Source: Pseudomonadota bacterium (GTDB lineage Bacteria; Bdellovibrionota; FAC87; UBA2466). Taken from it: DNA of 63,046 nt. This document shows positions 13,172-53,066 of this stretch, in pieces (the first letter of the stretch is position 1; each line of letters begins with the position of its first letter). The stretch lies in contig RFNO01000071.1 in the NCBI GenBank assembly GCA_009927165.1, forward strand, positions 1-63,046, read 5' to 3'. The translations under genes were made by a program, and so were the position numbers. The notes below the pieces were generated by a model. The model was not told the origin of the DNA. It did no database searches and saw nothing but the letters and a program-made list of their open reading frames with translations.

Positions 13172-14338
13172 TTATTTCGCTTTAAACTTACTCAAGTAAT
13201 CACGACCTTCGAGCTTGTAGTATTCGGCCAAGTATTCCAAATAAATTTTATTTACTGAAATAGGCAGTGCCGAATTGGTAAATAGCCGTTCCGACGAACG
13301 AGCTAGCACAACGTAATCTCTTCGTTTCTCACCCTGGGCCTTCAAAGCCGGAAAATAAGTGCAAGGCAAGTATCCCGCTTTGACGAAGCAATCAATCCCC
13401 CACAGATCGGCCGCATCATTAATCACTTCAATATAACTGATTTTTTCTCTCGCCAGCATTCGCGCCAACTGGGAGTAGAGCTCTGTGGGGTTTACTGCTT
13501 TTTCAAGACGCTCCCCAATAATGGTTGCCATTTGCTCTTCCGGAATAAGCTTCACGTAAATTTCTACTGACTCATCCCGATCGATGATCATCGCGTTCGG
13601 ACGCGTGAAGGGATAAAAGTGCATAGCTAGTGATTTTCTCTCTTCCAACTTTGAAAATCGTCTCAATACAAACTGAGGCGCATGAATTAGCTCTAACGAC
13701 GGAACTGCTTCAAAGGGAACTGGTGAACTCGGGACGTCCTGAGCCACCGGAAGATCCTCTAAATGGCACTCGCGCTTTACGAGGTCGAAAAAGGGGGCAA
13801 TAGCTGGATGTAACTGGAAATCCTGATGCCGTTTTTCTTCAAGCACTTTGTCAAAAAAATAAGCGGCAACGCCGTTCAGCCGATTCCCTTCCGTCGCGGA
13901 TGCCATCGGCAAAACCCCCACGATCTTAAAACCCAATTCAAGAGTAGCTTCTTGTTGCTTGAGTGAAACCCCTTGGGCCGTTGTATAAATCACTTCGATC
14001 TTTCTTTTTGGGTCTTTTAAGTAAGCGAGTAGCGGAACCAAGCCTTTTTTGAGAACTCCTGCCCAATCCGTCACCACGGGATCTAAGTAAAGCCGCACTA
14101 CTTTTGCTAGTCGATTCTCCAGATCTATCAAAATCGAAAACACCGTCAGAGCGACGCCATTTTTCTCGCCTAAGATCCAAGCCGTAAAAGGACTACGGAT
14201 AGACTCGCGCAACTTTTCAGCATCCAGAAATACCGGATCTGAATTGGATGGATGCTTCCCTACTTGATAAAGACGCATTAAAGAAAATACGTCTGTTTCC
14301 GAAGCCAAACGAAATTGTATTTCCCCAACCTTGATCAT
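13172..14338 (-). CDS. protein with two GNAT-like domains, last gene of the LuxC/LuxE cluster, 388 aa
   Basis: The N-terminal half (FRLASETDVFSLMRLYQVGKHP, then LAKVVRLYLDPVVTD) has the outline of a GNAT acetyltransferase. The C-terminal half (FVLRRFSKLEERKSLAMHFYPF, IEVINDAADLWGIDCFVKAGY) looks like a second, diverged GNAT fold. Canonical acetyl-CoA loop residues are not clear, so one or both halves may be inactive or use another acyl donor. Its ATGA start overlaps the stop of the MFS gene, which ties it to the five upstream genes. A role in acylating the product of that pathway is inference. Confidence 0.62.
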   Translation of the reverse strand: MIKVGEIQFRLASETDVFSLMRLYQVGKHPSNSDPVFLDAEKLRESIRSPFTAWILGEKNGVALTVFSILIDLENRLAKVVRLYLDPVVTDWAGVLKKGLVPLLAYLKDPKRKIEVIYTTAQGVSLKQQEATLELGFKIVGVLPMASATEGNRLNGVAAYFFDKVLEEKRHQDFQLHPAIAPFFDLVKRECHLEDLPVAQDVPSSPVPFEAVPSLELIHAPQFVLRRFSKLEERKSLAMHFYPFTRPNAMIIDRDESVEIYVKLIPEEQMATIIGERLEKAVNPTELYSQLARMLAREKISYIEVINDAADLWGIDCFVKAGYLPCTYFPALKAQGEKRRDYVVLARSSERLFTNSALPISVNKIYLEYLAEYYKLEGRDYLSKFKAK

Positions 14339-15567
14339 TTAGACTCCCACGAAAGCTCACCAGTGCTTATCCTTCTGCGTAAAAACCAGAAATAATGGGA
14401 GACCAATAAAACTCCCATTCCTTGGACCAGACAAGTTTGTCTGACGCTCATTAGGTCACAGAGCCAGCCAAACACAAAATATCCTAATGGAAAGCTGGCT
14501 CCAATCAGATATTGTAGCAGCGCAAAAAACCTTCCCTTTACTTCTGCGGGAACCACTTGCTGAAAGAGGGATAAAAACTTCACGTTATTAACTCCCAACA
14601 CCAACCCCGATACGAACAGCATGGTTCCATAGAGCACGGACTGGACGGCAAAAGCAGGAATACAAAATGTTATGCCCAACACCAAAAGACACACGCCCGC
14701 AATCACCAGCTTATCGACACTTTCAGGTACCCAACGAGAACCCAGTGCCCCCGCAAAAAGGCCCACCCAGAGTGCCCCTTCAAGTGCTCCTAAAGTGATA
14801 GAGTCTGCCCCAAGAATTTTTTTAGTGTAGAGAGGTAAAATAACCAGAGTCGGTACGGTAAAAAAATTCACCACGCCAAAACCTATGACCATTTTCTTTA
14901 ACAGTCCAAATCGTTTCAAAAACTCCCAACCACTATCCCCTTTTGAAGGAGAATCGATTGTCGAGGAAAAAAATACTGCTTTTTTTGAAAAACGAGAAGC
15001 AGTGAAATAAAAAAGACAGGCCATCAATAAGATTTGCGACATCCCCATTACACCAATGGTTACAGCACCCAAAACCGCCCCTCCGAAATTGGATAACGAT
15101 TGGGTCGTTGCAAACAAAGCAACACCGTTCTCTTGATCTTCGGGATACCGGTCATTTTTTGGAATCAACTCGTATAGACTTTTGTTGAGCGCGGGATCGA
15201 TCAAGCTCTGGCAACAGGCTACCAGAAACCCCGTCGCAAGAAGTAGGGCCAAACTGGCATCTCTTTCCTTGACGATCAGGCTCGAACAACCCAGCAAGAC
15301 GCTGGTACACGAATCCGTCAACACTAAAATTCGGCTGCTCGAAAAAGTATCAACACACTTTCCTATAAAACGAGAAAACAAGAGGGGGGGAATGGCAACT
15401 GCCACCATGAACAGCCCAGTCCACTTTCCGGCATCGACGCCCAAATGGGACACAATCCACCAGACCATTGCCATCTGTACCATTCGCGCACCAGACTGGC
15501 TGAGTATTTGTCCCATCCACACCCAAGTGAAATGAGAATTTCTCAGAAAAAAATCAAAGCCTTTCAT
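14335..15567 (-). CDS. MFS-type transporter in the LuxC/LuxE cluster, 410 aa
   Basis: About twelve hydrophobic segments and an FIGKCVDTFSSSRILVLTDS loop between helices 2 and 3 (the MFS G-x-x-x-D/R-x-x-x-R/K signature region) mark a major-facilitator transporter of the MFS_3 or drug-exporter kind. I chose ATG 15567, preceded by GAGG, over a TTG at 15576. It overlaps the end of the LuxC fusion gene and shares an ATGA with the downstream GNAT-like gene. The natural reading is that it exports the product of the cluster at the inner membrane. The substrate is unknown. Confidence 0.85.
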   Translation of the reverse strand: MKGFDFFLRNSHFTWVWMGQILSQSGARMVQMAMVWWIVSHLGVDAGKWTGLFMVAVAIPPLLFSRFIGKCVDTFSSSRILVLTDSCTSVLLGCSSLIVKERDASLALLLATGFLVACCQSLIDPALNKSLYELIPKNDRYPEDQENGVALFATTQSLSNFGGAVLGAVTIGVMGMSQILLMACLFYFTASRFSKKAVFFSSTIDSPSKGDSGWEFLKRFGLLKKMVIGFGVVNFFTVPTLVILPLYTKKILGADSITLGALEGALWVGLFAGALGSRWVPESVDKLVIAGVCLLVLGITFCIPAFAVQSVLYGTMLFVSGLVLGVNNVKFLSLFQQVVPAEVKGRFFALLQYLIGASFPLGYFVFGWLCDLMSVRQTCLVQGMGVLLVSHYFWFLRRRISTGELSWESK

Positions 15568-18184
15568 CAATAACAAGCCTCACTTTACCTGTCCTGGAGT
15601 CTCTTGGGATCTCGCCAGGCTTTTTAATATGAACTTCAATGTCAACCAGGCTCTTCTTTCTCATTGCTTCTTGTATTTTTGGAAGGCCCGAAAGCATCGC
15701 TTTTTTTATTTCATTTGAGAGTTCTGAGTTCTGAGAGTCGGTTTCAAGCACAAGGCGAATACTTTCGCCTTGATCGTCACTAAAAGCAATTAACTGAAAT
15801 AAGGAAATAGGCAAATGACTCAAAGCCTGCTGGATATCACGATAGTTCACATTCATTAAGCCCACACTCAACATGTCATCAGTACGACCTAAATACTCTA
15901 TTCTTCTTCCCATTCGCCCACATTTACACGGTTCGCTCAAGAACCGTCCGCTATCACCTATTTCATAACGCAGAAGCGGAAAGCTCAGCTTCTGCAAGCT
16001 TGTGATTAACATTTTCCCGACCGCTCCTTCGGGCAATGATTGACCTTTTTCATCTACTATCTCGATAAAATTGTAATCATCGATCACATGGTGTTCCGTT
16101 CCCTGACAATATTCGCACTGAAACCCGATCTGGCCTCCGTCATTGGCGCCAATGACAGAACTTATTCGTTTAGCTCCACACTCAGATTGTATCCACTTTC
16201 TATCAGCTGGACTGAGCGGTTGCCCACCAAAGATTACGGTTTCAATCTCAAAAGCGGGTTCGATTTTTTTACACTGGCGAAGAAGCGGCATGAGAACCGT
16301 TGGGATAGCTTCAATTACGTTAATCTTGAACTGTTTCCACGTTTGTAAAAACACATCAGTTTTTAATTCCCCGGCAAAAGCGAAGCTGGTTGCACCGACT
16401 CGACAGTTAATGTGGTCAAAGGATACAAAGCTTCCGTAGAGATCTCCGGCTAACATGCAATTAGCCACTCTGTCGCCCTTTTTAAGTCCAGCCCCCGCTA
16501 ATACTCGGATAGCGTTGGACACTAAAGCTTCCCAATCACTGCCATCGTAAACACTAAATTTAGGTTTTCCAGTAGACCCACCACTTCGAGTTACGTAACC
16601 GCCGCTCCATGAGCGAGTGCACAACCCATTGACTGTGGGGTCTGCTTGTTCCTCCATATCTTTTCGGGAGAGCACCGGAATCTTCTGCAAATCGACTAAT
16701 GAATTGATGACAAGGCCCTGTAAGCGTGGCCCGTAATAAGATGATGAACGAGCTATCTGAACCACTTCTCTTAACTTTTGCTCCAGAAGGAGTTTTCGCT
16801 CAACTTCTCCAAGACGTTCTTCCCAAAAAACAGGCTCATCTCTATCTCGCTGAAAAACAAAGTTACCAAATTGAGACAAGTCAAAAGCTCCATCATGAGG
16901 ATCATCAATTTCTCCGTTTGCCATTTCTCCTAACTCCACAATCCGCAGAATCCCTGCTTGAGTCAGATGGGAAGCCAATGGGGAAACTTCACTTTTGGCC
17001 ACTCCCAAGCCAACGGTTTGAAGATACCCACGCATTTCCTCCATTTGGACTAGAATGTCTTTTACCGTGCCAAAAGCACATATTTTTATCGTGCGATGTA
17101 ATGGAGACGGCTCAATCGCCTTATCTCGAGAACTATAAACAGTATGGCTGATACTGTTTTCTGGGCCCCAACATCGCCCTTCATTTTTTATCTCAGCTAT
17201 TTCTGCGACCATCCGCAGTTTCTGAATTTCAATCGCAGTATCCACTGATGCAGCTCCAGCGGGCAAAACTGTTTCCATATTTTTTAAAGCACTTACCAAT
17301 GAGCTGCCAAGTGGCTCCACGTTTCTTTCGTTTTCAATAAACACCATTTGGGGTGCCGTGCAGGCACTTTGATCCCAAACAGCCATCTCTTTCGCTAGCT
17401 GATGAGAAATCCAAGGCAATGTTTTTTCTTGGAGGCCCTTTTCGGTAACAATTGCCAGACTGAGTTTAGGTCCATAGACAATCACTTTGGTTCTTGCTGG
17501 GAGATCATTTCGATAAGCTTGGACGGCTTCTTCCCCGCCCCAAACCACGATTCCATCTACCGATCTCTTAAAAACCTGAATAACCCCATGATCTGTTGAA
17601 GAGTAATCGACGAGAGCAATGCTTCGGGTAATCACCCCATCCACGTCGATGCTTTCTATAGATTTGATGAGTCTGGGCAAAAAGAATTGCTCATCACTGC
17701 TTTGTTTTAAAAGAGTAATGTTCCCTGTAATTAAACCCTCAATGAGAGAACTTAATCCAACGAGAAAGACGTTTCCCGACAAGATATGCAGGACAACACC
17801 CAGTGGTTGAAAAGTTATTCGTGTACGACTTGACGGCTGAGAATTCCATTGCCCTCTTCGGATTCCTCTGAGCTCGCGTTCTAATTTTCTTTCCAGTCCA
17901 TTTCTGTCTAAAACCCTACTTATCGATGCAATAGATTGACGGATCATCTTTTCTGAAAAGCCCGTAACACCCGGCAACTCGGCTTCACATTCCTGTCGCA
18001 AACTAAAACCAGGATCACTCCACAACTTCCCCAAGTCCTGGAGTAAACTGAGTACTCTGTCGACGGGGTAAGATTCCAGTTCCTTCCTGCGAGCGTGGGC
18101 GAGCTGACAAAGCTCATTGGCTTCGAACGGTGTAACGGGTTTATCACCTGAGCGCCACTCACCTAGGAAAAAACGCGTCTTCAT
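15554..18184 (-). CDS. LuxC-like acyl reductase fused to a PaaK-like adenylating domain, 876 aa
   Basis: Residues 1 to about 440 match LuxC, the NADPH-dependent reductase that turns an activated acyl group into an aldehyde: GVVLHILSGNVFLVG, LKQSS, VVWGGEEA, and DQSACTAPQ with the probable nucleophile Cys275. The remaining 430 residues form a PaaK-like adenylate-forming domain with the P-loop SGGSTGKPK (534-542), EYCQGTEHH and CKCGRMG metal-like Cys, and an SRTGKVR end. LuxC proteins are normally about 480 aa, so this is a fusion. ATG 18184 overlaps the luxE-like stop (ATGA); a further in-frame ATG at 18292 is inside that gene. Acid activation and reduction on one chain is inferred. Confidence 0.88.
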   Translation of the reverse strand: MKTRFFLGEWRSGDKPVTPFEANELCQLAHARRKELESYPVDRVLSLLQDLGKLWSDPGFSLRQECEAELPGVTGFSEKMIRQSIASISRVLDRNGLERKLERELRGIRRGQWNSQPSSRTRITFQPLGVVLHILSGNVFLVGLSSLIEGLITGNITLLKQSSDEQFFLPRLIKSIESIDVDGVITRSIALVDYSSTDHGVIQVFKRSVDGIVVWGGEEAVQAYRNDLPARTKVIVYGPKLSLAIVTEKGLQEKTLPWISHQLAKEMAVWDQSACTAPQMVFIENERNVEPLGSSLVSALKNMETVLPAGAASVDTAIEIQKLRMVAEIAEIKNEGRCWGPENSISHTVYSSRDKAIEPSPLHRTIKICAFGTVKDILVQMEEMRGYLQTVGLGVAKSEVSPLASHLTQAGILRIVELGEMANGEIDDPHDGAFDLSQFGNFVFQRDRDEPVFWEERLGEVERKLLLEQKLREVVQIARSSSYYGPRLQGLVINSLVDLQKIPVLSRKDMEEQADPTVNGLCTRSWSGGYVTRSGGSTGKPKFSVYDGSDWEALVSNAIRVLAGAGLKKGDRVANCMLAGDLYGSFVSFDHINCRVGATSFAFAGELKTDVFLQTWKQFKINVIEAIPTVLMPLLRQCKKIEPAFEIETVIFGGQPLSPADRKWIQSECGAKRISSVIGANDGGQIGFQCEYCQGTEHHVIDDYNFIEIVDEKGQSLPEGAVGKMLITSLQKLSFPLLRYEIGDSGRFLSEPCKCGRMGRRIEYLGRTDDMLSVGLMNVNYRDIQQALSHLPISLFQLIAFSDDQGESIRLVLETDSQNSELSNEIKKAMLSGLPKIQEAMRKKSLVDIEVHIKKPGEIPRDSRTGKVRLVIDERL

Positions 18185-19311
18185 AGGTTGTCGCTCCGTT
18201 TCACAATCTCGCTTGCAGTCATGGCACATCCCTTGTTCTTGGTAAGCCCCCCTCGTCCCACCAAGGTGAAAGTAGGTGAGGCAGTTCCACACGCACAGGG
18301 CTTTTCATCCAAGTACCCAAGATCCGTCGAAAGGATGCTGAGATTAGGCATCATGGAATTAAAGGGAGTGATAAACTGGAGAAGTCCCACTTTTCCCGTT
18401 CCCATTGGCTTAAGAGAAAAAGGATCACGTACGATGATGCGATTGAACGCTGGGATATGAAAAGAATGGTTTTGGCACTCCAAGTACGGACTTCCGTGTT
18501 CGGCAAGTCCATAACCATCTCGGATCCTGACATCCGTTATTCCGAAAAGCTGATGAATCATCTCCCGAAACTTCTGTCTAGATACTTTTTTGTCCTCAGC
18601 TGCTTTCCAGCCTCCACCTGTCATCACTAAACTCTCGGGAGCCAATTTGACTTGTTGGTTGTTTTTCTGCATCACTTCCATCAAATCAAACAGAAAACTC
18701 GGAATTCCCATCAATCGGACCGGTCCCCCGCTCGCCTCAAACTCCCGGAGCTTCATGAGGGTCTCCTCAACGTCGAACACCCAACTGTCGTTCTTCATTT
18801 TTAGAGCGAAGTAACTTTCCCGGCTTGGGGCAAACCGTTGTCCATTTCTGACCGTGAAAGCGATCCCTAAATCTTTAGCATTTTTGGGATCGTATATGAA
18901 ATTCAAATAGGATGTCTTTTCTTTGGAGATCAATCCCTCTTGCCCCCATACTCCTGTTAACATTTCCTGGGCGCGTTCAAGGCTCTCAGAATCGAAATGA
19001 ATCTCGGTTTTTCGCCCACGAGTTCCTGATGAGGTCAGACTCAGCACAGATGACTCTATCGGCTTTGATAACAACAAGTATTTTTTCATGGCTTCTACCC
19101 CTATCCAGGGTAGTTTTTCAAAGTCGGCTTCCGTCTTTAATTGGTCAGGACTAAATCGCCGGTTTTTACAGATCGTTCTGAACTCAAGACTGGCTTGGAT
19201 CTGAAACTCAGCCATTTGCTGACAGGCATGTTGCATCACTTTGCACTTGGTCTCATCCCATGATAAGGGCTGGGGTTCACGGCATATTTTTTCAATGCTC
19301 GACAACTTCAT
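18181..19311 (-). CDS. LuxE-like acyl-protein synthetase, 376 aa
   Basis: The whole protein matches LuxE, which adenylates a fatty acid and holds it on its own Cys before passing it to LuxC. SSGTRGRK (94-101) is the ATP-binding loop, RDGYGLAEHG (264-273) the acyl-adenylate motif, and KGCAMTA (360-366) carries Cys362, close to the acyl-accepting Cys of luciferase-type LuxE near the C-terminus. Length equals that of known LuxE. Its ATG overlaps the stop of the GNAT-fusion gene, and its stop overlaps the LuxC-fusion start. Together with LuxC it should yield an aldehyde. No luxA or luxB is nearby, so light emission is not expected. Confidence 0.87.
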   Translation of the reverse strand: MKLSSIEKICREPQPLSWDETKCKVMQHACQQMAEFQIQASLEFRTICKNRRFSPDQLKTEADFEKLPWIGVEAMKKYLLLSKPIESSVLSLTSSGTRGRKTEIHFDSESLERAQEMLTGVWGQEGLISKEKTSYLNFIYDPKNAKDLGIAFTVRNGQRFAPSRESYFALKMKNDSWVFDVEETLMKLREFEASGGPVRLMGIPSFLFDLMEVMQKNNQQVKLAPESLVMTGGGWKAAEDKKVSRQKFREMIHQLFGITDVRIRDGYGLAEHGSPYLECQNHSFHIPAFNRIIVRDPFSLKPMGTGKVGLLQFITPFNSMMPNLSILSTDLGYLDEKPCACGTASPTFTLVGRGGLTKNKGCAMTASEIVKRSDNL

Positions 19312-20777
19312 AGCAACACATTTCCTTCGTAGCTTTTGCGGACAATATCCAACAAGCGTTTGGCCTGTTCGGTGGATACTTTTATGTCATCAAATGCCAC
19401 TTTTGTCGGACCGATAGATTGGAAACGCATGGCCAATTTGTCAGAAGCTTTAAACGGTATAAAACCCGAAATAAAAAAACCCACACTGGATAGTTGATCG
19501 TAAATTTGAGCAAGACCTGGTTCATCAACGGGCACGTCAACTGCCCCGTATTGATAGCCTTCTCTCAAAAAAGCTGCCCAATCTCGAATAATTTTTTGGA
19601 CAGCACTTCTTCCACTTTTGCTCAGCTCAAATACGACTGCATTCTGAGCTCGAAATACGTGAGCCTCAGAAACCCCTTCAGCCGGTAAAACTTGGAATCG
19701 ACTAGTGGGAACCCAACTCATTTTCAAAGGCTCAAGAAGGAAACCCAAGAGCTCACCTAAATTATTAGGAAGTTGTATGACTTTTCCAAAAGGATACTTG
19801 GCCCGTGGAAGAACCGACACCAAGAGTGAGTACCGTTCCATTTCTTTTGGATCGGCCCCCAGCCCGATCTTCTCGAGCTTCGCTTGCGTCTCCTTGGATT
19901 GACATCCGACGAAAAGAGCTAGGTCAGCGGTTCCATACCTCGAAACAAACCTTTGTGTATAATCATGATTGGTTACGAAATCTATCAAGCAATACTGAAA
20001 CGGAAGTTGCTCCAATTTTTTTATTACGGCTTGAAAGAGTTTGCTGAACAGACCTCTCGACTTTACTCTCGGATCGGTCACACCCAAACACGGCTCAAAA
20101 ACGAGGGGGGTTTGGTTGCACTGGAGCAAACCCACATGCCCGACCAACCTGCCATTTTTCAGCGCTGCTACGAAGGAAATAAGTTTCCCTTCTTTCATCA
20201 TCTGCGACATGCGTTCCGGATAGTAAACGGCTTCATTAATGTATTGGTAACCGTAGACATGATAAAACAGTTGGCTCAAAGCACCGGTTTCACTAGGCTC
20301 CATTGGTCGTATAGTCACCGAATTGTTTTGGAGTTCTTCTGCGGAATCCTGTGATCCCAAGACAGACAGCTGAGTATTCTTTGGTTTTTCCAAACTTGCC
20401 TTTAGGCAAATGGTTTGTCCCCCACGACCATGATTGTAAATAAAAATGCCTTCAAGCTGGGAAGCTAACTTCATCAGTTTTTCTTCCGCGGGACGGTTAG
20501 CATCCTGTATGAGAATGGGAACTCCGCGATTAATCACTTCAACAACCAAACTCTGCTCATTCTTATGTATTTCCAGACCGATCGGCTCCCCTATTACTGT
20601 ATCTGACACATTATTATTCATGACAGTTGCCAATGATGCTTCAATTGCGCTTTCTAGTGGCTTTATTTGATGGGTTGGAAGTTCAGCTTGTCGAGCATAT
20701 TTGACCACAAACTCTACGGCGGGGAAGAGAAATTCCTGACTCGGAGGAAAGCTGATCTTTGCTCTTGGATAACTCAT
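19308..20777 (-). CDS. RsbW-like ATPase domain fused to GNAT acetyltransferase, 489 aa
   Basis: Residues about 10-130 resemble the RsbW/anti-sigma histidine-kinase-like ATPase fold (FVVKYARQAEL...LESAIEASLATVMNN, VVEVINRG, GRGGQTICLK). The usual N-box Asn and D-G-G box are altered, so ATP binding is uncertain. Residues about 153-300 form a GNAT domain (VTIRPMEPSETGALSQLF, DPRVKSRGLFSKLF as the acetyl-CoA loop). The last 170 residues are unassigned and may be a second GNAT-like fold. ATGA overlaps join it to the PaaK-like gene before it and the luxE-like gene after it. It may acylate the pathway product or regulate an enzyme; both are inference. Confidence 0.72.
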   Translation of the reverse strand: MSYPRAKISFPPSQEFLFPAVEFVVKYARQAELPTHQIKPLESAIEASLATVMNNNVSDTVIGEPIGLEIHKNEQSLVVEVINRGVPILIQDANRPAEEKLMKLASQLEGIFIYNHGRGGQTICLKASLEKPKNTQLSVLGSQDSAEELQNNSVTIRPMEPSETGALSQLFYHVYGYQYINEAVYYPERMSQMMKEGKLISFVAALKNGRLVGHVGLLQCNQTPLVFEPCLGVTDPRVKSRGLFSKLFQAVIKKLEQLPFQYCLIDFVTNHDYTQRFVSRYGTADLALFVGCQSKETQAKLEKIGLGADPKEMERYSLLVSVLPRAKYPFGKVIQLPNNLGELLGFLLEPLKMSWVPTSRFQVLPAEGVSEAHVFRAQNAVVFELSKSGRSAVQKIIRDWAAFLREGYQYGAVDVPVDEPGLAQIYDQLSSVGFFISGFIPFKASDKLAMRFQSIGPTKVAFDDIKVSTEQAKRLLDIVRKSYEGNVLL

Positions 20778-22111
20778 GAGATGATGTCTTCCCTTATTCG
20801 TATGAGTTTTCCCGTTCTTTGATTTCGTTCAATGGAATTGACTGGAACAATTTTTACTTGAAGGGGTTCGATCAACCCTTTCTGAATCATCATTTGAAAA
20901 GCGGGACGACTCTCCACGATAACTTTGTGAAGTTCACGCTCCAGACGAGCAAATTCTTGTTGTGGCTCTTCGCTCTCTACTCGAATTTCAAGAAGGTCTT
21001 TCCCGGCTTTTCTTGACTTCACTAATTGTACAGTTCCAGACACACCAGCCACTTTCAGAACGCACTCTTGAATACTGGCATATTCAACGGAATCATAACC
21101 AATTCGTAAAACATCATCTCCTCTGCCAAACAGTTTAAAAAGAGGAGTTGTCCTCCCGCAAGGACATGGTCGTTCCAGCCACATTGCAAGATCGCCCACT
21201 CGATACCGTACAATCGGTGTGATTTTCCGGGGGTAAGCCGTAGCGTAAAGCATCCCGACCTGATTCGGTTCAGCGGCTTGTTGTTTTTCCTCGTTTACAA
21301 TTTCAATGAAGCACTGATCATCATGCGCATGAAACACTCCCGAAGGGGTCTCTTCGCATTGATAACCAATATACCAAGTATCTACGGTCCCATACCCAGG
21401 AGCTAAAATGGTATTTGTTCCAAACTTTCGTTTTATTTCCACTTTGTCTGCGTCGTACAAGTGCTCCCCACCGAAAAACACTTTTTCTATTTTTAATTTT
21501 TCGGAACCCAAGCTTTCAAACTCACGAAGTGCACTCAGCACGATACTGGAGACCCCGGTGACAACATTGATCTTAAACTGATTTACTACTGTATGAACAA
21601 ACTCATTCAAGCTGTTGTTCGCAAATGGAAAATTCACGCACCCATAATTCTGGAGCATTCGATTAATATGAATAAAAGTCATGTAAAGCGAACCCACGGC
21701 GAATAAATTGGCAACTCTATCTTCCGCTCTGAGTCCACAAGCATAAAAGCCGCGAGCATTGGGGAGATCTAAAGCTTCCAATTCACTGTGACTAAACAGA
21801 GTGGTTTTAGGCATTCCAGTGGTTCCACCACTTTGGAAAACAGTAAATTGTTCGGACGTGGGGACTACTAAATTATCGGAGTGCGGAGGAAGACTCGAAC
21901 GGACCTCCGAAGATTCTAAGGGGGGAACTTCTTGCAAAGGATGGGCTGCTTTGGGTTGATAGGCTTTCAATCGATTTTTATAAAACGGGAGTTGAGCCGC
22001 ATACGTCACATAAGTATTGAGTCGTTTTCTGACTTCAGGGTTTCGGTCGATGGTTGGGGTTTCTTCCCACGTATCGTAGAATCGACCCTGTTTTTTTTTG
22101 AGTAATGTCAT
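20774..22111 (-). CDS. PaaK-like adenylate-forming enzyme, first gene of the LuxC/LuxE cluster, 445 aa
   Basis: It matches phenylacetate-CoA-ligase-like enzymes: SGGTTGMPK (94-102) is the P-loop, PGYGTVDTWYIGYQCEE and YRVGDLAMW follow, CPCGRTTPLF has the paired Cys seen in the family, and NQRTGKL carries the C-terminal catalytic Lys. Such enzymes activate a carboxylic acid with ATP. It resembles the C-terminal domain of the LuxC fusion and may be its paralogue. A TAA seven codons before the ATG makes 22111 the first usable start, though no ribosome site lies close by. It heads the six-gene run that ends at 13172. The substrate acid is unknown. Confidence 0.85.
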   Translation of the reverse strand: MTLLKKKQGRFYDTWEETPTIDRNPEVRKRLNTYVTYAAQLPFYKNRLKAYQPKAAHPLQEVPPLESSEVRSSLPPHSDNLVVPTSEQFTVFQSGGTTGMPKTTLFSHSELEALDLPNARGFYACGLRAEDRVANLFAVGSLYMTFIHINRMLQNYGCVNFPFANNSLNEFVHTVVNQFKINVVTGVSSIVLSALREFESLGSEKLKIEKVFFGGEHLYDADKVEIKRKFGTNTILAPGYGTVDTWYIGYQCEETPSGVFHAHDDQCFIEIVNEEKQQAAEPNQVGMLYATAYPRKITPIVRYRVGDLAMWLERPCPCGRTTPLFKLFGRGDDVLRIGYDSVEYASIQECVLKVAGVSGTVQLVKSRKAGKDLLEIRVESEEPQQEFARLERELHKVIVESRPAFQMMIQKGLIEPLQVKIVPVNSIERNQRTGKLIRIREDIIS

Positions 22112-44081: not shown

Positions 44082-44690
44082 TTAGAGCCCCGTGCTTCGC
44101 TTTTGATAGAACTTACGAATCTCTTTCTCGTCAGTCCAATCAATGATACCCGTCTCGATGTTAACCAGATTGAAAGTTGCTTTGTAGTAGACGTACTTTT
44201 TACTTCCCACTTCCTGAACTCGATCTGCAATTTCACCGGTTAGAAAATACTGTGCACCGATTTGTTTTCCTTTTTTTCTTGCGGAAGCTGCATCCACGTA
44301 ACCACTTTCATTTTGGTATTGGAGTTCTCCCGCCATTTCTTCTCGAGCACCCTTTTCAGTAAAACGGAATTTTCCGCTTTTCACAACAGCAGTGCGAATT
44401 TTATCGGTCATCGACTTCATATCAATATGTTCAGAAGCACGATTCGTAATGAGCGTAATCAGCACCACCGGAGGTCTAGCAGCTTCCTGCACAACTCGGC
44501 TGTCAGTAAGAGACTTGACCATAGTGTCAGCAATTTGCCGCATATCGCTTTCATTGAACTTATCATCGAGAAGACGATCCTCTGAGAGATCATCATATTT
44601 CCCTTGGGTGAATTGTTTTGAACCGCATGAACTTACAACTAACGTGAGAACCCCACAAAAAACCAGCTTAAGAATCTGTTTTTGAGTCAT
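44082..44690 (-). CDS. lpoB: LpoB-type penicillin-binding-protein activator lipoprotein, 202 aa
   Basis: I chose ATG 44690 because GGGG lies just upstream and because it opens a lipoprotein signal with lipobox VVSSC (Cys22); an in-frame ATG at 44741 lies within the cytochrome gene. The mature part matches LpoB: DDKFNESDMRQIADTMVKSLTD, PPVVLITLITNRASEHIDM, MTDKIRTAVVKSGKFRF, AARKKGKQIGAQYFLTGEI. LpoB spans the periplasm from the outer membrane to stimulate PBP1B. Its start overlaps the octahaem cytochrome end by 23 nt, so it is co-translated with the respiratory genes. Confidence 0.85.
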   Translation of the reverse strand: MTQKQILKLVFCGVLTLVVSSCGSKQFTQGKYDDLSEDRLLDDKFNESDMRQIADTMVKSLTDSRVVQEAARPPVVLITLITNRASEHIDMKSMTDKIRTAVVKSGKFRFTEKGAREEMAGELQYQNESGYVDAASARKKGKQIGAQYFLTGEIADRVQEVGSKKYVYYKATFNLVNIETGIIDWTDEKEIRKFYQKRSTGL

Positions 44691-47600
44691 TGTTTTCCCC
44701 GTCTTTAGTGTCAGTGTTTTCAGCAGAAGGAGCTTGGCCAACAGGTGGCTCCAAACGATTTAAATCGCTCGGCATCGTCACCGGCTTTCCGCCCCCTTTT
44801 TGATAGCCCAACAAAAGCACATAATCTGCTAATGCATCTTGTTGTTTCTGGGAATCCCCTCCCAAAATCTCTGGTGCTGGACTATTCCCCTCAGGCCAGA
44901 ATCCGGGCATTCGGGTTCCTGGAACCATTTTTTGGGGGTTCTTGAGGAGGGAGATTATCCACTCTTTATTTAAACGCCCATAAGACCGAGTAATATCTGG
45001 AGCGTAACCTTTGCTCCCCCCCTCGAGATCATCTGCAGAGAGAGCGTACTGACCCACCGTATGGCAGTTTCCGCACTGGAGTTTATTCCAGAGTGCCTTA
45101 GCGGCTTCCAGACGCTGACCGGAAATTTCCGGTGCTTTGAGCTCCGCATTTGGAAACTCAAGGTTCCCCGACCGCGCCCAATGAGTTGTAATTTTATTAT
45201 TTTCGTCTGTGGGCATATTGTAAGACGGCATGCGCACTTTAATACCTCTGCGGAGTTTCCAGCTTGGGTTGTTCAAGAAATTATAAACCCACTCTGAACG
45301 GACTCGGCTTCCTTCGGTAACAAGCGGCGGAGGTCCTTTGGTTTCATCTTCCGAGAAATAAGTCAGAATCCTACCTTCCAGATTCCATTTTTCTTTTTCA
45401 TGTTTTTCAAAATCCGGATGTCCTTCAGGTAGGGATTGATACATTCCCTCGACTATATGACAGCCCTGACAATTATATTGATGAACCACTCGAGAGCCTT
45501 CTTCTATTTGCGATTCTCGGGCGTTGAGTATTTTTGCTGAAGGTGCCCCAATTTTTTGGGCTGTTAACCCTAGGATAAATGTCACCAAACTATCTCTCTG
45601 CTCTTCATCAAAGTGATAGTTAGGCATTCTCAATAAATCCAAGTATTCTTTCACGACTCCTTTATCAAAAGAGCGGGTGGCCTTGAATTTCTGATGCAAC
45701 CAAGAAGCAACCGATTTCTCCATGTCCAACAGGCCGAAATCGAATTTATTGACGAGCTTACTCCCATGCTCACTCAACTCTACCCCGCTTCCAGGCATTG
45801 TTTCCATACCACTGATTTCATGACATCCATAGCAACCGTAACGAGTGACGGCATTCTTGCCCAGTCTGTCGACGACTTCCTTCTTGGAGAGCCCCTCTAC
45901 GAACTGGTGAACTTTTGCTTTGGTTGCAGGTGCCATTTTGGGATCGCGCATGAGGTAAAGTTCAAGCACTTCTTTTTGTTTATCAAAATCAGCTTCGCCC
46001 ACTTCCAGTTGTTCAAACGTTGGGTTTTTCTTACTCAACAAGTAAGCGGATACGTCAGCTATCTCAGCATCGGTAAGACGCAGCGAGGGCATCGCGGTAT
46101 CTTTCCAATAATGGCGTGGATTTTTCAGCCACTGCCCCAACCATTCGCGATTAAGCTTGCTTCCCACTGTTGACAAATCAGGAGCTGCTCCAAATCGTCG
46201 CCTTCCTTCTGGGAACTCCTCCATTCCGTGACAGCCCAAACACCCCACGGAATAGAACACGTTTCGGCCTCTTTCCACGTTACCGCCGGCCGGAGCCGTG
46301 TAGGAAACCTTGTAATCCTCTGACAGCCCAAGAACATAGTCAGCAATCGCGAAGAGCTCAGCTTCCTGGAAAGCAGTATACTCTGGACTCTCGGTATTGC
46401 CTTGGTGGAACTGAGACGGCATTCGAGCATGGTCATTAAACGACTTAGGATTTCGCACCCAGCGCACAATCCAATCATGCTTGAGCTTTCCTTTGACTCG
46501 CTTAAGCGAAGGAGCTGGTTTACGAATATGATCCCATCCTTGGATGCGATGGCAACCATAGCAACCTGCGCCTCTTACCAGTTGGACTGCTTTGTTCAAT
46601 TTTTGGGCAGCGGGAACGTACTCAGTTTCTCGATGGCATACACGGCACTGTCCCTCGGTATATTGGAGGGGGACCATTTTTTCGATCACGTGGTGCATTT
46701 CATGCCACCCGTATTTTTTTTGCCATTCCTTCTTTTGTTCTTCGTTGCGAGGAGTGTGTGCCGAGCGGACGAAATCGACGGAAGCACCTCTTCCAGAGTG
46801 ACAAACGGTACAGCCCACTTTCTCAGTCGGATGGGGCGAGGTAGCACCTAACATCAGTTCCAAATTGGGATGAGTTCGGTACGGCTGAGGGGCATCTTCG
46901 AAACCCGGAGTGTCGATAGCTAAATGACAAGTGGTACAGCGGTCTACTTTCTGAACTTGAGCAAAGTAAACATCATCTCGAATCGTCGGAATAACCACTT
47001 GCTGCACTTTGAAAACTGGATTGGCTAAATCCAAAATGGGTGCACTTCTTAATAACTTGGTTAAATTAATTTCAGAATTACTTTTGGCTGCCAGCAATCG
47101 TTCAACCGTCGCTTGCGATTTCTTCAGTTCTTTTTCGAGTTCAGACTTCTCAGCATCTAGCTTAGCCATTTCCGCATTTTTAGCGTCTTCAGCCATCTGA
47201 GCATTGTTGGCGGCATCAGACAACGCTTGAACCTTTTCCCACTCTTTGGAGAGAGCTTCGCGAGCTTTTCTCTCTTTATCAGAGAGCTTGGTTCCTTCTT
47301 CAATTTTTTCTCCATGGGCGACCTTATGACCGTACACATTTTCAAATTCGTACTTGCTAACGTCGTACCGCCCTTTGGCTGCTTGGTACTTATCGACCTT
47401 ATTCACTCGATCCGTTTTGAGCTTGACCAATTCTTTAGCCAATTTTTTGGCTTCTGCTGCTTTTTCTTTATTGGCGGCATCAACTTGAGCTAATTTGTCT
47501 TTAAGTTCCTTGATTTTGTTTTCATCAAGGCTCTGTTTCGCTTCCTCAATTTGCTTCTCAATTTTGCCTTTGCGGTAATTAAAGAAATTAACTTGGTATT

Positions 47601-47736
47601 TTTTCCACTCACGACCGAAATCGTCGAGAACCATCCACAGAGTGAAAATCAACATAATGACGCTGGAAATCCCAAACGCCTTCATCAAAGTTTGGCTCTT
47701 GTAAAACTTATCGTCCGGTGAAGCGTTTTTGGCCAT
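44668..47736 (-). CDS. membrane-anchored octahaem c-type cytochrome of the bc complex, 1022 aa
   Basis: One N-terminal membrane helix (about 20-37) is followed by a highly charged coiled coil (about 55-225), then eight CxxCH motifs at about 267, 309, 364, 392, 499, 635, 756 and 888. The four last segments look like repeated mono-haem cytochrome c modules (GRNVFYSVGCLGCHG, TRYGCYGCHE, VVHQYNCQGCH, LWNKLQCGNCH). It takes the place of cytochrome f or c1 beside Rieske, cytochrome b and subunit IV, so it should carry electrons from the complex across the periplasm. The gene is the fourth in that operon, 18 nt after subunit IV. The long coiled coil is unusual. Confidence 0.9.
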   Translation of the reverse strand: MAKNASPDDKFYKSQTLMKAFGISSVIMLIFTLWMVLDDFGREWKKYQVNFFNYRKGKIEKQIEEAKQSLDENKIKELKDKLAQVDAANKEKAAEAKKLAKELVKLKTDRVNKVDKYQAAKGRYDVSKYEFENVYGHKVAHGEKIEEGTKLSDKERKAREALSKEWEKVQALSDAANNAQMAEDAKNAEMAKLDAEKSELEKELKKSQATVERLLAAKSNSEINLTKLLRSAPILDLANPVFKVQQVVIPTIRDDVYFAQVQKVDRCTTCHLAIDTPGFEDAPQPYRTHPNLELMLGATSPHPTEKVGCTVCHSGRGASVDFVRSAHTPRNEEQKKEWQKKYGWHEMHHVIEKMVPLQYTEGQCRVCHRETEYVPAAQKLNKAVQLVRGAGCYGCHRIQGWDHIRKPAPSLKRVKGKLKHDWIVRWVRNPKSFNDHARMPSQFHQGNTESPEYTAFQEAELFAIADYVLGLSEDYKVSYTAPAGGNVERGRNVFYSVGCLGCHGMEEFPEGRRRFGAAPDLSTVGSKLNREWLGQWLKNPRHYWKDTAMPSLRLTDAEIADVSAYLLSKKNPTFEQLEVGEADFDKQKEVLELYLMRDPKMAPATKAKVHQFVEGLSKKEVVDRLGKNAVTRYGCYGCHEISGMETMPGSGVELSEHGSKLVNKFDFGLLDMEKSVASWLHQKFKATRSFDKGVVKEYLDLLRMPNYHFDEEQRDSLVTFILGLTAQKIGAPSAKILNARESQIEEGSRVVHQYNCQGCHIVEGMYQSLPEGHPDFEKHEKEKWNLEGRILTYFSEDETKGPPPLVTEGSRVRSEWVYNFLNNPSWKLRRGIKVRMPSYNMPTDENNKITTHWARSGNLEFPNAELKAPEISGQRLEAAKALWNKLQCGNCHTVGQYALSADDLEGGSKGYAPDITRSYGRLNKEWIISLLKNPQKMVPGTRMPGFWPEGNSPAPEILGGDSQKQQDALADYVLLLGYQKGGGKPVTMPSDLNRLEPPVGQAPSAENTDTKDGENNDSKTDS

Positions 47737-47754
47737 AGTGAAGCCTCGAAGTTT

Positions 47755-48843
47755 CTAAATATTAAAGAAGTACTCTGGAATCGCCACAATGTACTTCAGG
47801 TTAATAGTCCATCGTAAAATCATTTTGATCGGTAACGAGGCCATTAACAGTAGAATGACCACCATAATATAAAACCGCGGTTTCCCCATTTTTTCCAAAA
47901 AGGATTTCATGACGGTTTTACCCAAAATAACCGGACCCGCGAACATGTAGCCGATCACCAGTATGATTCCGACAAGCTCTCGGAACAACCAAAAATCAGG
48001 AAGCTTGCCGCCGTTCAGACCACCAAACCTGAAGATGTACTCAGATAAATTGACGTTTCGGAGTACTTCTAACTTGTGCAGATCCCATACTTCATAGGGA
48101 CCGTAGAAGTTCCAGTTAGGACCTCGCAAGAACGTACCCAACACGATCAGAACTACCCATAGGATGAGAAACCCAAAAAGATAAGTAGTGATCGCAAACT
48201 TTCTATCTTTAAAGCAGTAATAACCATTCCCTTTAGGATTCACATCAATGTAAGGCAGCACGATCAGTCCCACAATAATGAGAGTGGGAAACACAACTCC
48301 GGCAAGCCAAGGATCATAATAAACCAACATTTCCTGCAATCCCAAGAAGTACCACGGGGCTTTTGAGGGATTGGGAGTTTCCACCGGATTTGCAGGCTCC
48401 TCTAAAGGAGCACGAATGGTAATAGCCCAAATCAAAAGAACCGACCACACTACAATCGCGCAAATAAACTCACTAAAAATGAGGTCCGGCCAAGTGAAGA
48501 CTAATTCTTTAGCTTCTTGTTTGTTTTCGACGTCTTTGCCCTCTTCAATCAGCTTGTCGTTTTTGACTGCTTTGTTAAGAGGAAGCCAGCAAAAAAAGGT
48601 CAGCAAGAAAAGCATCAGCACAATCGGAACGTTGTCTGGCTTGGTTACCACGTCCCTAAAGGTGGGGTTCAGCATGCTAATCAGGATGAACACAGCCATC
48701 GAAACGAGAATGGTATAAAGAGAAGACTTCTTAGCTAACTTTTCTCGATAGGGAAAAAGTCCCAAGTAAAAAGCCACACATGACAATGTAAATAGAATAG
48801 CCGGCCGACAAAGATAGTTGATCAAATCAGTGATGAAGCCCAT
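47755..48843 (-). CDS. cytochrome b6f/bc complex subunit IV-like protein, 362 aa
   Basis: KAPWYFLGLQEML is the PEWY-like quinol-oxidation-site motif of cytochrome b C-terminal domains. It is followed by ILVVGLIVLPY-type helices and a third and fourth helix. Compared with subunit IV (about 160 aa), it has an additional 100 residues with helices before that motif (including DKLIEEGKDVENKQEA) and more after it. It binds quinol together with the b6-like subunit. AAGGA precedes the ATG, 9 nt after cytochrome b. The assignment is firm; the extra helices are unexplained. Confidence 0.88.
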   Translation of the reverse strand: MGFITDLINYLCRPAILFTLSCVAFYLGLFPYREKLAKKSSLYTILVSMAVFILISMLNPTFRDVVTKPDNVPIVLMLFLLTFFCWLPLNKAVKNDKLIEEGKDVENKQEAKELVFTWPDLIFSEFICAIVVWSVLLIWAITIRAPLEEPANPVETPNPSKAPWYFLGLQEMLVYYDPWLAGVVFPTLIIVGLIVLPYIDVNPKGNGYYCFKDRKFAITTYLFGFLILWVVLIVLGTFLRGPNWNFYGPYEVWDLHKLEVLRNVNLSEYIFRFGGLNGGKLPDFWLFRELVGIILVIGYMFAGPVILGKTVMKSFLEKMGKPRFYIMVVILLLMASLPIKMILRWTINLKYIVAIPEYFFNI

Positions 48844-48852
48844 ACGTTTTCC

Positions 48853-49641
48853 TTATAGAGGACCTGAAATTCCCCCGTCTTTTCTAACTCGCCAAAAATG
48901 CACTGCCATGAGCACGCTCGCCACTAGCGGGATAAAAATGCAGTGGAGCACGTAAAACCGAAGCAAAGTCGCTTCCCCCACCAACCTTCCCGCAAGAAGG
49001 GCAAATCGAGCATCACTGCCAGCATTAATCGCCTCAAAGCCTAACAGGGAGTTCAACAGAGCCGCTCCCGGACCCTCATTTCCCGCAAAAGGAGTGGCGC
49101 GAGCCATATTTGAGCCCACAGTAATAGCCCAAATAGCCAACTGGTCCCAAGGGAGCAAGTAGCCGGTAAAGCTCAAGAGTAACGTCAGAACCAATAACAC
49201 TACTCCAATTCCCCAGTTAAATTCTCTGGGGGGCTTATAAGAACCTGTCAGAAACACTCGGAACATATGCAACCAAACACTGATCACCATGCTATGAGCA
49301 CCCCATCGGTGGATTTCTCGCATAATTCCAATGGGCACATGCTCGCGGAGCGCAATGATATCGTAATAAGCGTACTCTGCAGTAGGCCGATAATAAAACA
49401 TCAGAAGGACCCCGGTGATGGTCTCAACCAAAAATAAAAAGAATGTGATTCCGCCCATGCACCAGGTGAAGCTCATCCGAACACCCGATTTCTTCATGCG
49501 AATGGGGTGGAGGTGCAGAAACACGTTCATAAGAACAACCAAAACTCGGTTTCTCGCGTTTGCCGAAGGTGCTCCATGACGGAAAATGGATTTCCAGGCT
49601 TGTGATTCTTTTATCGTTTCGAAAATTGTTGGTTTAGCCAT
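48853..49641 (-). CDS. cytochrome b6-like subunit of the bc complex, 262 aa
   Basis: The four haem-binding His are visible: H111 and H125 (IHRWGAHSMV, WLHMFRVFLTG, 14 apart) and H233 and H248 (VLHCIFIPL, VHFWRVRK, 15 apart). The 15-residue spacing and the C-terminal ISGPL are those of the b6 type. The split into this gene and a subunit-IV-like gene supports a b6f-like rather than mitochondrial-type complex. It lies 34 nt after the Rieske gene and oxidises quinol in the inner membrane. Confidence 0.94.
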   Translation of the reverse strand: MAKPTIFETIKESQAWKSIFRHGAPSANARNRVLVVLMNVFLHLHPIRMKKSGVRMSFTWCMGGITFFLFLVETITGVLLMFYYRPTAEYAYYDIIALREHVPIGIMREIHRWGAHSMVISVWLHMFRVFLTGSYKPPREFNWGIGVVLLVLTLLLSFTGYLLPWDQLAIWAITVGSNMARATPFAGNEGPGAALLNSLLGFEAINAGSDARFALLAGRLVGEATLLRFYVLHCIFIPLVASVLMAVHFWRVRKDGGISGPL

Positions 49642-49675
49642 CCTTACTGCTCCCTTACCTACGCCGTTTCAGCCC

Positions 49676-50197
49676 TTAGGCCAGCTCAAGGAAGGAACTT
49701 GGATCGTTCCATTGCCCTAGCTCGAACTTAAATTTAGCCATTTTATCTACAAAAACCTGTCCGTCTTCGGAAAGACCGATTTTATACCGCTCTAGCGGAC
49801 GTGGGGCAGGCCCCTCAAAGTTAATTCCGGTGGAATAAAAGCCGCTTCCATGACACGGACATTTGAATTTCTGTTCGGCATCCAACCAATTGGGTGTGCA
49901 CCCCAAATGAGTACAGACCGTTGACAGGGCGTAAATTCCTTTTTCGTTCCGAACTAGCCAAACGCCGTATTTCTTCTTAAAGCGTTCATCGACTTTTCCA
50001 ACGGCATATTCGGCAGGGAAACCGGCTTTAAATTGTTGCGGAGGCTCAAAGGTGACATTGGGAAAAAACAAACGGCCGACTGCCGTAAGACCCGCTCCCA
50101 TGGCGGCTCCAAAGCCCACCCAACCTACACTAAGCCACGTGATAAAGCTGCGTCGACTAATGCCTTCGGGTGCTTCTGGAAATGACGGTGCTGGCAT
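49676..50197 (-). CDS. petA: Rieske iron-sulfur protein of the bc complex, 173 aa
   Basis: CTHLGC and CPCHGSGF are the two cluster-binding boxes of Rieske proteins, with C/H at the canonical places. The N-terminus has an ISRRSFITW twin-arginine motif and a membrane helix (WVGFGAAMGAGLTAVG), so it is a Tat-exported, membrane-anchored subunit. It is the first gene of the bc operon, behind a good sigma-70 promoter (50242-50270). The assignment is firm; the symbol follows general use for this family. Confidence 0.95.
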   Translation of the reverse strand: MPAPSFPEAPEGISRRSFITWLSVGWVGFGAAMGAGLTAVGRLFFPNVTFEPPQQFKAGFPAEYAVGKVDERFKKKYGVWLVRNEKGIYALSTVCTHLGCTPNWLDAEQKFKCPCHGSGFYSTGINFEGPAPRPLERYKIGLSEDGQVFVDKMAKFKFELGQWNDPSSFLELA

Positions 50198-51126: not shown

Positions 51127-52017
51127 ATGACTCCCTCACATCGCTCAGGTACCATTTGGCTCGTGAAACCACGGTATCTTCATACTTTGCTGGAAAAGAA
51201 AGTTGTGTTTTTTACCGGAAAAGGGGGTGTAGGCAAAAGCGCACTCACTTCTGCGACAGCCGTTCTTTGCCAAAGACAGGGAAAAAAGGTTTTCTTGGTT
51301 AGTTGGAACCCCTTTGATACCCACGCTCGTTCCTTTCCCTACTCTTCTTTGGGAATTGAGCATTTAGTTCTGGATGGGCCTAGTTGTTTTAAGGAGTATG
51401 TCCTTGGAATTTTAAAATTTGAGAAAATTTACGATCTCATTTTTGAAAACAACGTTTTCCAAACATTCATAGCTGCCAGTCCCGGATTAGCAGAAACAGT
51501 CATCGCTGGAAAAATCTGGGATTTAATGGATAAAAACCCCCAAGCTCTGATTCTCGTTGATTTGCCGGCGAGTGGGCATGCTTTTACTTTTTTTTCTTCT
51601 CCTCTGGGATTGCGTAAACTTTTTAGAATGGGTCTAGTGCATCGAGAAATTGAGCGAATCTGTGAAATGTTTCTCAGCTCATCCACTCTATTGAACTTTG
51701 TAACACTGCCAGAAGAACTTCCTTTGTCAGAGACGCTTGAATTCAAAAATAAGCTCGCCAAACTAGGTAAAATAAATATGGGTTTTTTCTTATTAAACCA
51801 GTGTCTTCCTCAGCTTCCAGGACGAGAACCGGTGGAACCCCTAAATAACGACGACCAGCTTCTTCTACAGCAGTACCGATCTTATTTGGATCAAGAGCTT
51901 CGAGCAGAAGAGCTGCTTCAAAGTGCTGAACTGCCACAAATCAAACTCCCTCGACTGAGTTGCCCCGAATGGATAACGACGGTTGAGGCTTTATCTCGCG
52001 AGTTGGAGCGCCAATGA
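51127..52017 (+). CDS. ArsA-like ATPase, first and diverged member of a pair, 296 aa
   Basis: The deviant Walker A GKGGVGKSALT marks the ArsA/GET3 group. The usual DPA-N/S-L motif is replaced by SWNPFDTH, and ILVDLPASGHAF stands for the switch region, so this member may be regulatory or weakly active. It overlaps the second ArsA-like gene by ATGA, as in pairs found in Bdellovibrionota, myxobacteria and actinobacteria. Arsenite export is unlikely, since no arsB or ars regulator is near. A role in targeting or quality control of membrane proteins is possible. Confidence 0.82.
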   Translation: MTPSHRSGTIWLVKPRYLHTLLEKKVVFFTGKGGVGKSALTSATAVLCQRQGKKVFLVSWNPFDTHARSFPYSSLGIEHLVLDGPSCFKEYVLGILKFEKIYDLIFENNVFQTFIAASPGLAETVIAGKIWDLMDKNPQALILVDLPASGHAFTFFSSPLGLRKLFRMGLVHREIERICEMFLSSSTLLNFVTLPEELPLSETLEFKNKLAKLGKINMGFFLLNQCLPQLPGREPVEPLNNDDQLLLQQYRSYLDQELRAEELLQSAELPQIKLPRLSCPEWITTVEALSRELERQ

Positions 52018-53066
52018 GTTGGGATTTAGACAGCAAACGTATTTTCCTGATTGGAGGCCCTGGCGGCGTTGGAAAAACAACCATTGCAGCCGCGTTGGCT
52101 ATCAATCTCAGCCAACGGGGATACCGGACGTTGGTGTTAACGGTCGACCCCGCTCGGCGACTAGCACAGGCCCTTGGTTTCAGCGACTTTTCAAACACTT
52201 TACAAAAAGTATCGGTACCAGGACATCCCCAAGCTTATTTAATGGCTTCCATGCTGGATAGCGAACACTACTTTGACAAAGTCATTGAGCGGTTTGCTCG
52301 CTCCCCGGAGCAGAAAAAGAAAATTTTAGAAAACAATCTTTATCGGACGATGGTGGAATCGTTAGGGGGAAGCCACGAATATGCTGCAATGGAGCGCCTA
52401 CTGGAGTTTGCCTCTCATGCGGAATTTGACAAAATAGTGGTCGACACTCCCCCCACTCAGAATGCTCTTGATCTTTTCAACGCTCCCCAAAGACTTGCCA
52501 ATTTCATGGATAATTCAGTGCTTCGCTGGTTTCAACAGAAAGGGGGCTTTCACTTTTTTCAACGAGGCTCCCAACTTGCCATGAAAGCTTTGCAGAAAGT
52601 CTTAGGAAGCGCCTTTTTGGATCAGTTGGCCCTCTTTCTCAATGACTTAGAGGGAATGCAATCAGGATTTAAAGCACGTCATTTAGCGGTGTTGGAACTT
52701 TTTAAAAATCCAACCACTTCGTTTGTTCTGGTCACTCAGGCCAGCGAAGCTCGTTTCCTAGAATCAGTTGAGTTTCACAAAGTCCTGCAGAGCGAAGGAA
52801 TTCGGCTTGATCAGCTCATTCTCAATAGGATGGAAACAACGGCTCATGAACGACACACTCCTGGCCTATCTCGAGAGTCGCTTGAGTGGATTACAGCTTT
52901 CGCTCGTTACCTCCACGAACTTCAATTAATCCAGAAAAAATGGATGGATGCTTTCAAGACCGCGCTGCCAGTCCCGACGGTTCTAATCCCGCGCAACAGT
53001 AAGAGCCTTACGAACCTTGAAACACTTTTGGAATTGGGAAACTCCCTCACCTGCTCTGCATCGTAG
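52014..53066 (+). CDS. ArsA-like ATPase, second member of a pair, 350 aa
   Basis: GGPGGVGKTTIAA is the Walker A; TVDPARRLAQALG and IVVDTPPTQNALDLFNAP are typical of this class of paired anion-ATPase-like proteins. Here the DPA motif is intact, so this member should hydrolyse ATP. It is coupled by ATGA to the preceding diverged copy. The pair may work as a hetero-complex at the membrane. The 3' end is 5 nt from the convergent DUF503 gene. Confidence 0.87.
   Translation: MSWDLDSKRIFLIGGPGGVGKTTIAAALAINLSQRGYRTLVLTVDPARRLAQALGFSDFSNTLQKVSVPGHPQAYLMASMLDSEHYFDKVIERFARSPEQKKKILENNLYRTMVESLGGSHEYAAMERLLEFASHAEFDKIVVDTPPTQNALDLFNAPQRLANFMDNSVLRWFQQKGGFHFFQRGSQLAMKALQKVLGSAFLDQLALFLNDLEGMQSGFKARHLAVLELFKNPTTSFVLVTQASEARFLESVEFHKVLQSEGIRLDQLILNRMETTAHERHTPGLSRESLEWITAFARYLHELQLIQKKWMDAFKTALPVPTVLIPRNSKSLTNLETLLELGNSLTCSAS

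Follow-up and report, generated by a model that had tools for sequence, protein, structure and literature searches.

What might the acid-reducing enzymes LuxE and LuxC be doing in a bacterium that has no luciferase genes beside them? This question is raised by a six-gene operon on the minus strand of contig RFNO01000071.1 of a Bdellovibrionota genome (assembly GCA_009927165.1), located at positions 13172-22111 of the window, by which the whole analysed stretch of 63,046 nucleotides is meant. The initial annotation of this stretch, made from the letters without database searches, had read the six genes as a candidate new biosynthetic pathway. The operon is real and conserved; its chemistry is of a familiar type, and the arrangement is new. 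On balance it is somewhat probable that its enzymes make a small metabolite for export by a pathway that needs no carrier protein, in which acids would be activated, one of them reduced to the aldehyde, an amine acylated and the product exported.

The operon lies on contig C18 within a 137-contig, 2.47-Mb assembly with a completeness of 95.9%. All six open reading frames (ORFs) were intact in the ORF check, with zero internal stops, and follow one another from 22111 to 13172 in the 5'-to-3' order PaaK1, RsbW/GNAT, LuxE, LuxC::PaaK, major facilitator superfamily (MFS) exporter and tandem GNAT (Table 1). Neighbouring genes are joined by 4-nt ATGA overlaps, except for an overlap of 23 nt at the LuxC::PaaK/MFS junction. 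Place, strand and families had already been given in this form by the initial annotation, and the domain and fold searches agree. The program-made ORF of LuxC::PaaK (15554-18292) opens too early, at GTG 18292; by alignment with homologues ATG 18184, which overlaps the LuxE stop, is the better start, and hence the number originally proposed for the LuxC nucleophile, Cys275, is right (Cys311 in the longer ORF). A promoter and terminator scan upstream of the operon gave nothing above chance.

LuxE and LuxC together are an established acid-to-aldehyde machine. The closest solved relatives of the two window proteins come from a single LuxC/LuxE entry, whose two chains match one protein each: 7xc6_E for LuxE (E=3.5e-34) and 7xc6_A for the LuxC domain (E=6e-47), while the PaaK2 domain of the fusion matches the PaaK structure 4r1l (E=3e-45). 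Cys362 of LuxE aligns with Cys360 of the LuxE from a luminous luxCDE operon and stands in a KGCA motif found in 23/23 cluster members; Cys275 of the LuxC domain aligns with Cys288 of the LuxC from the luminous operon, and the surrounding motif WDQxACTAPQ is present in 20/20 cluster members. Since these thiols, which define the two families, are invariant, the functional prediction that carries the least risk is an ATP/NADPH carboxylate-to-aldehyde reductase. Adenylation motifs were detected in LuxE, PaaK1 and PaaK2 alike, so that the three acid-activating domains counted earlier are all present. PaaK1 has both hallmarks of PaaK ligases: its P-loop and the C-terminal catalytic lysine of RxxRTGK are invariant in an alignment of three orthologues, and the P-loop is kept in 22 of 23 cluster members. 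A carboxylic acid reductase of the CAR type (adenylation-carrier-reduction) was ruled out, as the fusion has no carrier domain; its reductase part is of the LuxC/aldehyde dehydrogenase type.

Table 1. Genes of the operon at 13172-22111, from the first to the last.
Feature	Position	Strand	Evidence
PaaK1, stand-alone PaaK-family adenylating ligase, 445 aa, first gene	20774..22111	-	PF00501/AMP-binding; NCBIfam PaaK-type E=2e-32
Degenerate RsbW fold + GNAT + C-terminal region of similar secondary structure, 489 aa	19308..20777	-	model; weak Pfam GNAT
LuxE-type acyl-protein synthetase, 376 aa, acyl-carrying Cys362	18181..19311	-	PF04443 E=5e-40
LuxC acyl reductase fused to PaaK2 adenylating domain, 876 aa	15554..18184	-	PF05893 E=3e-82 + AMP-binding/PaaK
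MFS exporter, MFS_3 / H+ antiporter type, 413 aa	14335..15576	-	PF07690/PF05977; TIGR00900 E=9e-29
Tandem GNAT-like acyltransferase, 388 aa, last gene	13172..14338	-	fold matches; Pfam silent

In order to collect related loci, a profile of the RsbW/GNAT protein was built from a ten-member alignment; a scan of the genome contigs with a single LuxE sequence had matched nothing. The RsbW/GNAT gene is thus present in the collected loci by construction, and the other genes are independent evidence. The profile found 11 close members among 369 genomes of the phylum and about 10 among 295 genomes of the phylum Elusimicrobia, as well as named metagenome-assembled genomes of Bdellovibrionota, Elusimicrobia and two Riflebacteria. 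The comparison of gene order in other genomes, which had been suggested as a check, came out in favour of the cluster: the order PaaK - RsbW/GNAT - LuxE - LuxC::PaaK - MFS - tandem GNAT (type I) recurs in three phyla, Bdellovibrionota, Elusimicrobia and Riflebacteria, with protein identities mostly of about 32-58%. The mapped type I loci have six to seven families in common and no other family is conserved. Pairwise distances correlated in all 28 gene pairs tested (r 0.53-0.90, permutation p<=0.002); judged by these protein distances the operon genes co-evolve, and the operon is clearly a complete, selected gene set. In parts of the concatenated tree loci of different phyla are intermingled, and support at these places is moderate (0.76-0.90): the Bdellovibrionota locus L011 stands beside an Elusimicrobia group, and the Riflebacteria adjoin an Elusimicrobia locus. 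This mixing suggests that the gene block was transferred.

Bioluminescence itself was ruled out as the function of the operon. As initially noted, no luxA/luxB pair lies near it, and the one luciferase-like match of the genome (PF00296) is weak (48 bits), unpaired and on another contig. LuxD is missing among the six genes and the searched direct neighbours, to which the search was limited. The operon resembles the lux fatty acid reductase (PDB 7xc6) in having both families with both catalytic cysteines; it differs in the fusion of LuxC to PaaK, in the extra PaaK, the GNATs and the exporter, and its identity to a luminous luxCDE operon is about 22%. A second parallel is GriC/GriD, the carboxylic acid reductase acting on 3-amino-4-hydroxybenzoate in grixazone biosynthesis, in which an AMP-ligase and a reductase likewise form a two-protein system and an aldehyde is made within a metabolite cluster (PMC10179220). 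GriC/GriD serves an unrelated pathway, however, and is likened here by its described function, not by sequence. LuxCE and GriC/GriD are the closest characterised analogues. Neither a described cluster with this gene set nor a product was found in the open-access full-text literature, which is not proof because only open access was covered. The claim that the set is undescribed therefore stands to this extent, but the set is neither unique nor isolated, having relatives in Actinobacteriota and Gammaproteobacteria.

Luciferase-free luxE, luxC and AMP-ligase genes also occur together in the group II flagellin glycosylation islands of Aeromonas, where deletion of island genes affects flagellin glycans (PMC7874193), and a Roseobacteraceae plasmid shows an acyl carrier protein (ACP)-SDR-AMP-ligase-LuxE layout. 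By analogy with the proposal made for the Aeromonas islands, LuxE, LuxC and PaaK could feed a fatty acid into the making of a lipid or glycan at the cell surface, as decoration of the envelope or flagellum. We regard this as fairly unlikely for the present operon: where the islands have an ACP, a reductase and glycosyltransferases, it has the PaaK fusion, the GNATs and the MFS protein. No ACP, ketoreductase (such as a 3-oxoacyl-ACP reductase) or glycosyltransferase is among its six genes, and in their stead stands a drug-type MFS exporter, which holds the same slot in relatives.

The second gene encodes an unusual fusion. The initial annotation had called its N-terminus RsbW-like; in the Pfam scan of the window protein this domain went undetected, yet in the AlphaFold model the N-terminal 130 residues have the fold of Bacillus subtilis RsbW (6m37, TM-score 0.87 by target length over 127 columns), and related proteins, including stand-alone relatives, score HATPase_c_2. 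The GNAT part is supported by GNAT matches on the model and by weak ones in Pfam. Despite the shared fold, a working anti-sigma kinase of the RsbW/SpoIIAB kind was ruled out, as the ATP motifs (N-box Asn, G1/G2) are gone in the cluster proteins. The fused GNAT is a further difference from these kinases. The N-box and the G1 Asp motif are each lost in 26/26 cluster proteins, whereas the N-box is kept in 5/5 stand-alone relatives compared; the cluster domain is therefore pseudo-kinase-like and is probably a docking or regulatory module instead of a kinase. In one distant member a SpoIIE phosphatase sensor adjoins the RsbW/GNAT gene, which suggests that the RsbW part was originally a signalling module. 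A divergent cluster at L029:1349-12786 comprises, in one run of genes, MFS, a 456-aa protein of no known family, PaaK, LuxE, LuxC::PaaK, HATPase-GNAT and a dCache-HAMP-SpoIIE-HATPase sensor phosphatase. Stand-alone HATPase-GNAT fusions are scattered in Elusimicrobia (L097, L098, L099, L100, L101, L102 and L103); the N-box is intact in those examined, and L100 has SpoIIE-type phosphatase genes nearby.

The exporter belongs to the H+ antiporter/Mef type and occupies the same slot in most relatives; a few have no MFS gene. The last gene had been described as a double GNAT and has zero Pfam matches of its own, but Foldseek matched its AlphaFold model to the tandem GNATs 2wpw, 9en3 and 7q3a, with low TM-scores of 0.3-0.4 across the full pair and about 0.6-0.7 per single domain. 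With moderate confidence it is assigned as a tandem GNAT, and its homologues are present in nearly all cluster types.

The type I set is an elaboration within a widespread family, (MFS)-tandem GNAT-LuxE-LuxC::PaaK-(PaaK), because related clusters occur in many more Bdellovibrionota genomes, in other phyla and on plasmids. The LuxE profile matches 112 of the 369 genomes of the phylum. The type I set is present in 11 genomes; about 90 further Bdellovibrionota genomes, counted by LuxE match and with gene order checked in a sample, carry a second LuxE class (E about 1e-78 to 1e-110). The sampled neighbourhoods of this class (type II) read (MFS) - tandem GNAT - LuxE - LuxC::PaaK - PaaK or consist of the three-gene core tandem GNAT - LuxE - LuxC::PaaK, which is also present in Elusimicrobia and Riflebacteria. 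Thus LuxE and LuxC::PaaK are adjacent in nearly every cluster type, and the tandem GNAT accompanies them in almost all. A cluster special to the present lineage was ruled out by the matches in other phyla and the frequent LuxE matches. Streptomyces plasmids (NBC_00158, S. cattleyicolor) carry PaaK - MFS - tandem GNAT - LuxE - LuxC::PaaK, with the same gene families and the same fusion, but in another order, without the RsbW/GNAT gene and with identities of about 22-35%. Two conjugative plasmids of Salmonella enterica, CP053580.1 (L060:11998-16875) and CP054717.1 (L067:7718-13476), carry LuxE - LuxC::PaaK - PaaK, followed on the latter by an annotated GNAT gene; this version was not found in E. 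coli genomes. Two other Salmonella plasmids match the start of the LuxE-LuxC::PaaK stretch. One genome with a type I cluster also has a second, GNAT-free cluster, MFS-LuxE-LuxC::PaaK-PaaK (L150:7602-13897). On a plasmid of Streptomyces europaeiscabiei (NZ_CP109155.1, L059:6025-14483) LuxE and LuxC adjoin DUF692, MBL-fold, YcaO and MFS genes, possibly a peptide-modification cluster with an aldehyde step.

LuxE-profile matches are frequent in one Bdellovibrionota family, in which the sampled loci are of type II, and the PaaK family is best known from phenylacetate breakdown. Both points would suit a catabolic or detoxifying role: the cell would use the CoA ligases and LuxC on an aromatic or fatty acid that it scavenges, for instance from prey, and the MFS protein would be a drug pump carried along. 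Such a role appears improbable to us, given that ring-cleavage and beta-oxidation genes are lacking in the cluster, that aldehyde reduction together with GNAT and exporter better fits anabolism, and that the patchy spread over phyla fits a specialised trait.

Many close relatives extend the six genes by a seventh, which refines the set described initially. It is located within the cluster or next to it, in most cases immediately upstream of PaaK1, in 14/30 tabulated loci from at least two phyla, many of the 30 being cut by contig ends. Its product has a hydrophobic N-terminal segment of signal-peptide type and is related to protein glutaminase (PF18626; 8z3i, E=5e-6); Cys, His and Asp are invariant among these cysteine hydrolases, and the distances of the gene correlate with those of the cluster genes. 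These features raise the possibility of prodrug-type logic similar to that of the ClbM/ClbP pair of colibactin: a reactive product might be N-acylated, and thereby masked, by the GNATs while still in the cytosol, then exported by the MFS protein and unmasked outside by the secreted hydrolase. For two reasons this is considered unlikely. The window operon has no adjoining hydrolase gene, and the solved relatives of the hydrolase are protein glutaminases, which act on proteins rather than on small amides. A deamidase as part of the window operon was ruled out, the sole homologue in the genome being a diverged lone gene on contig C6 (L057:7908-8708), unlinked to the cluster. A more far-reaching proposal, to which little probability is given, is a carrier-free class in which LuxE and a self-loading LuxC::PaaK would form a two-entry carboxylate reductase, the dead RsbW domain would recruit the GNAT, and a masked N-acyl product would be exported and freed outside by a dedicated secreted cysteine amidase.

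Given three domains for adenylation, a pair of GNAT proteins and an exporter, the simplest reading of the window operon is that one or two acids are activated, one is reduced, an amine is acylated and the product is exported. LuxE would adenylate a carboxylic acid and hold the acyl group on its C-terminal cysteine; the acyl group would then move to the LuxC cysteine, and the LuxC domain would reduce it with NAD(P)H to the aldehyde. The fused PaaK2 and the separate PaaK1 would turn either this acid or another one into acyl-AMP/CoA; the tandem GNAT (in type I together with the RsbW/GNAT fusion) would transfer an acyl group to an amine, and the MFS pump would export the product. From the gene content we infer this order of reactions, the substrates, the N-acylation and the outward direction of transport, with the aldehyde as either an intermediate or the end point. 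Three points weigh against this proposal. The substrate acid may by the present data be either aromatic or aliphatic. The GNAT activity of the tandem protein is predicted from the fold of a model with a pLDDT of 75, Pfam being silent. Finally, no precursor-supplying gene, carrier protein or pathway-specific regulator is inside the operon, so that general metabolism would have to provide the main substrate, or the cluster might instead have a housekeeping or envelope function. The initially proposed biosynthetic cluster is borne out by the conserved luciferase-free set, the LuxE and LuxC cysteines, the acyltransferases and the exporter; its RsbW part had to be revised to a degenerate domain.

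If the proposed pathway is true, proteins familiar chiefly from light production lie at the heart of a large group of metabolite pathways that has gone unrecognised; it is common in one Bdellovibrionota family, present in uncultured phyla and plasmid-borne in cultured Streptomyces and Salmonella. Searches for aldehyde-derived metabolites not yet described could then start from this cluster family, and the fused carboxylate reductase might serve as a biocatalyst. The operon is also a case in which a biosynthetic-type gene set makes new use of an anti-sigma-kinase fold that has lost its ATP site.

Elsewhere in the window, two further gene groups were seen by eye in the ORF translations. At 44668-50197 cytochrome bc-type genes (Rieske and cytochrome b) adjoin a 1022-aa protein rich in CxxCH haem motifs, and at 51127-53066 two ArsA/Get3-like ATPase genes are neighbours.

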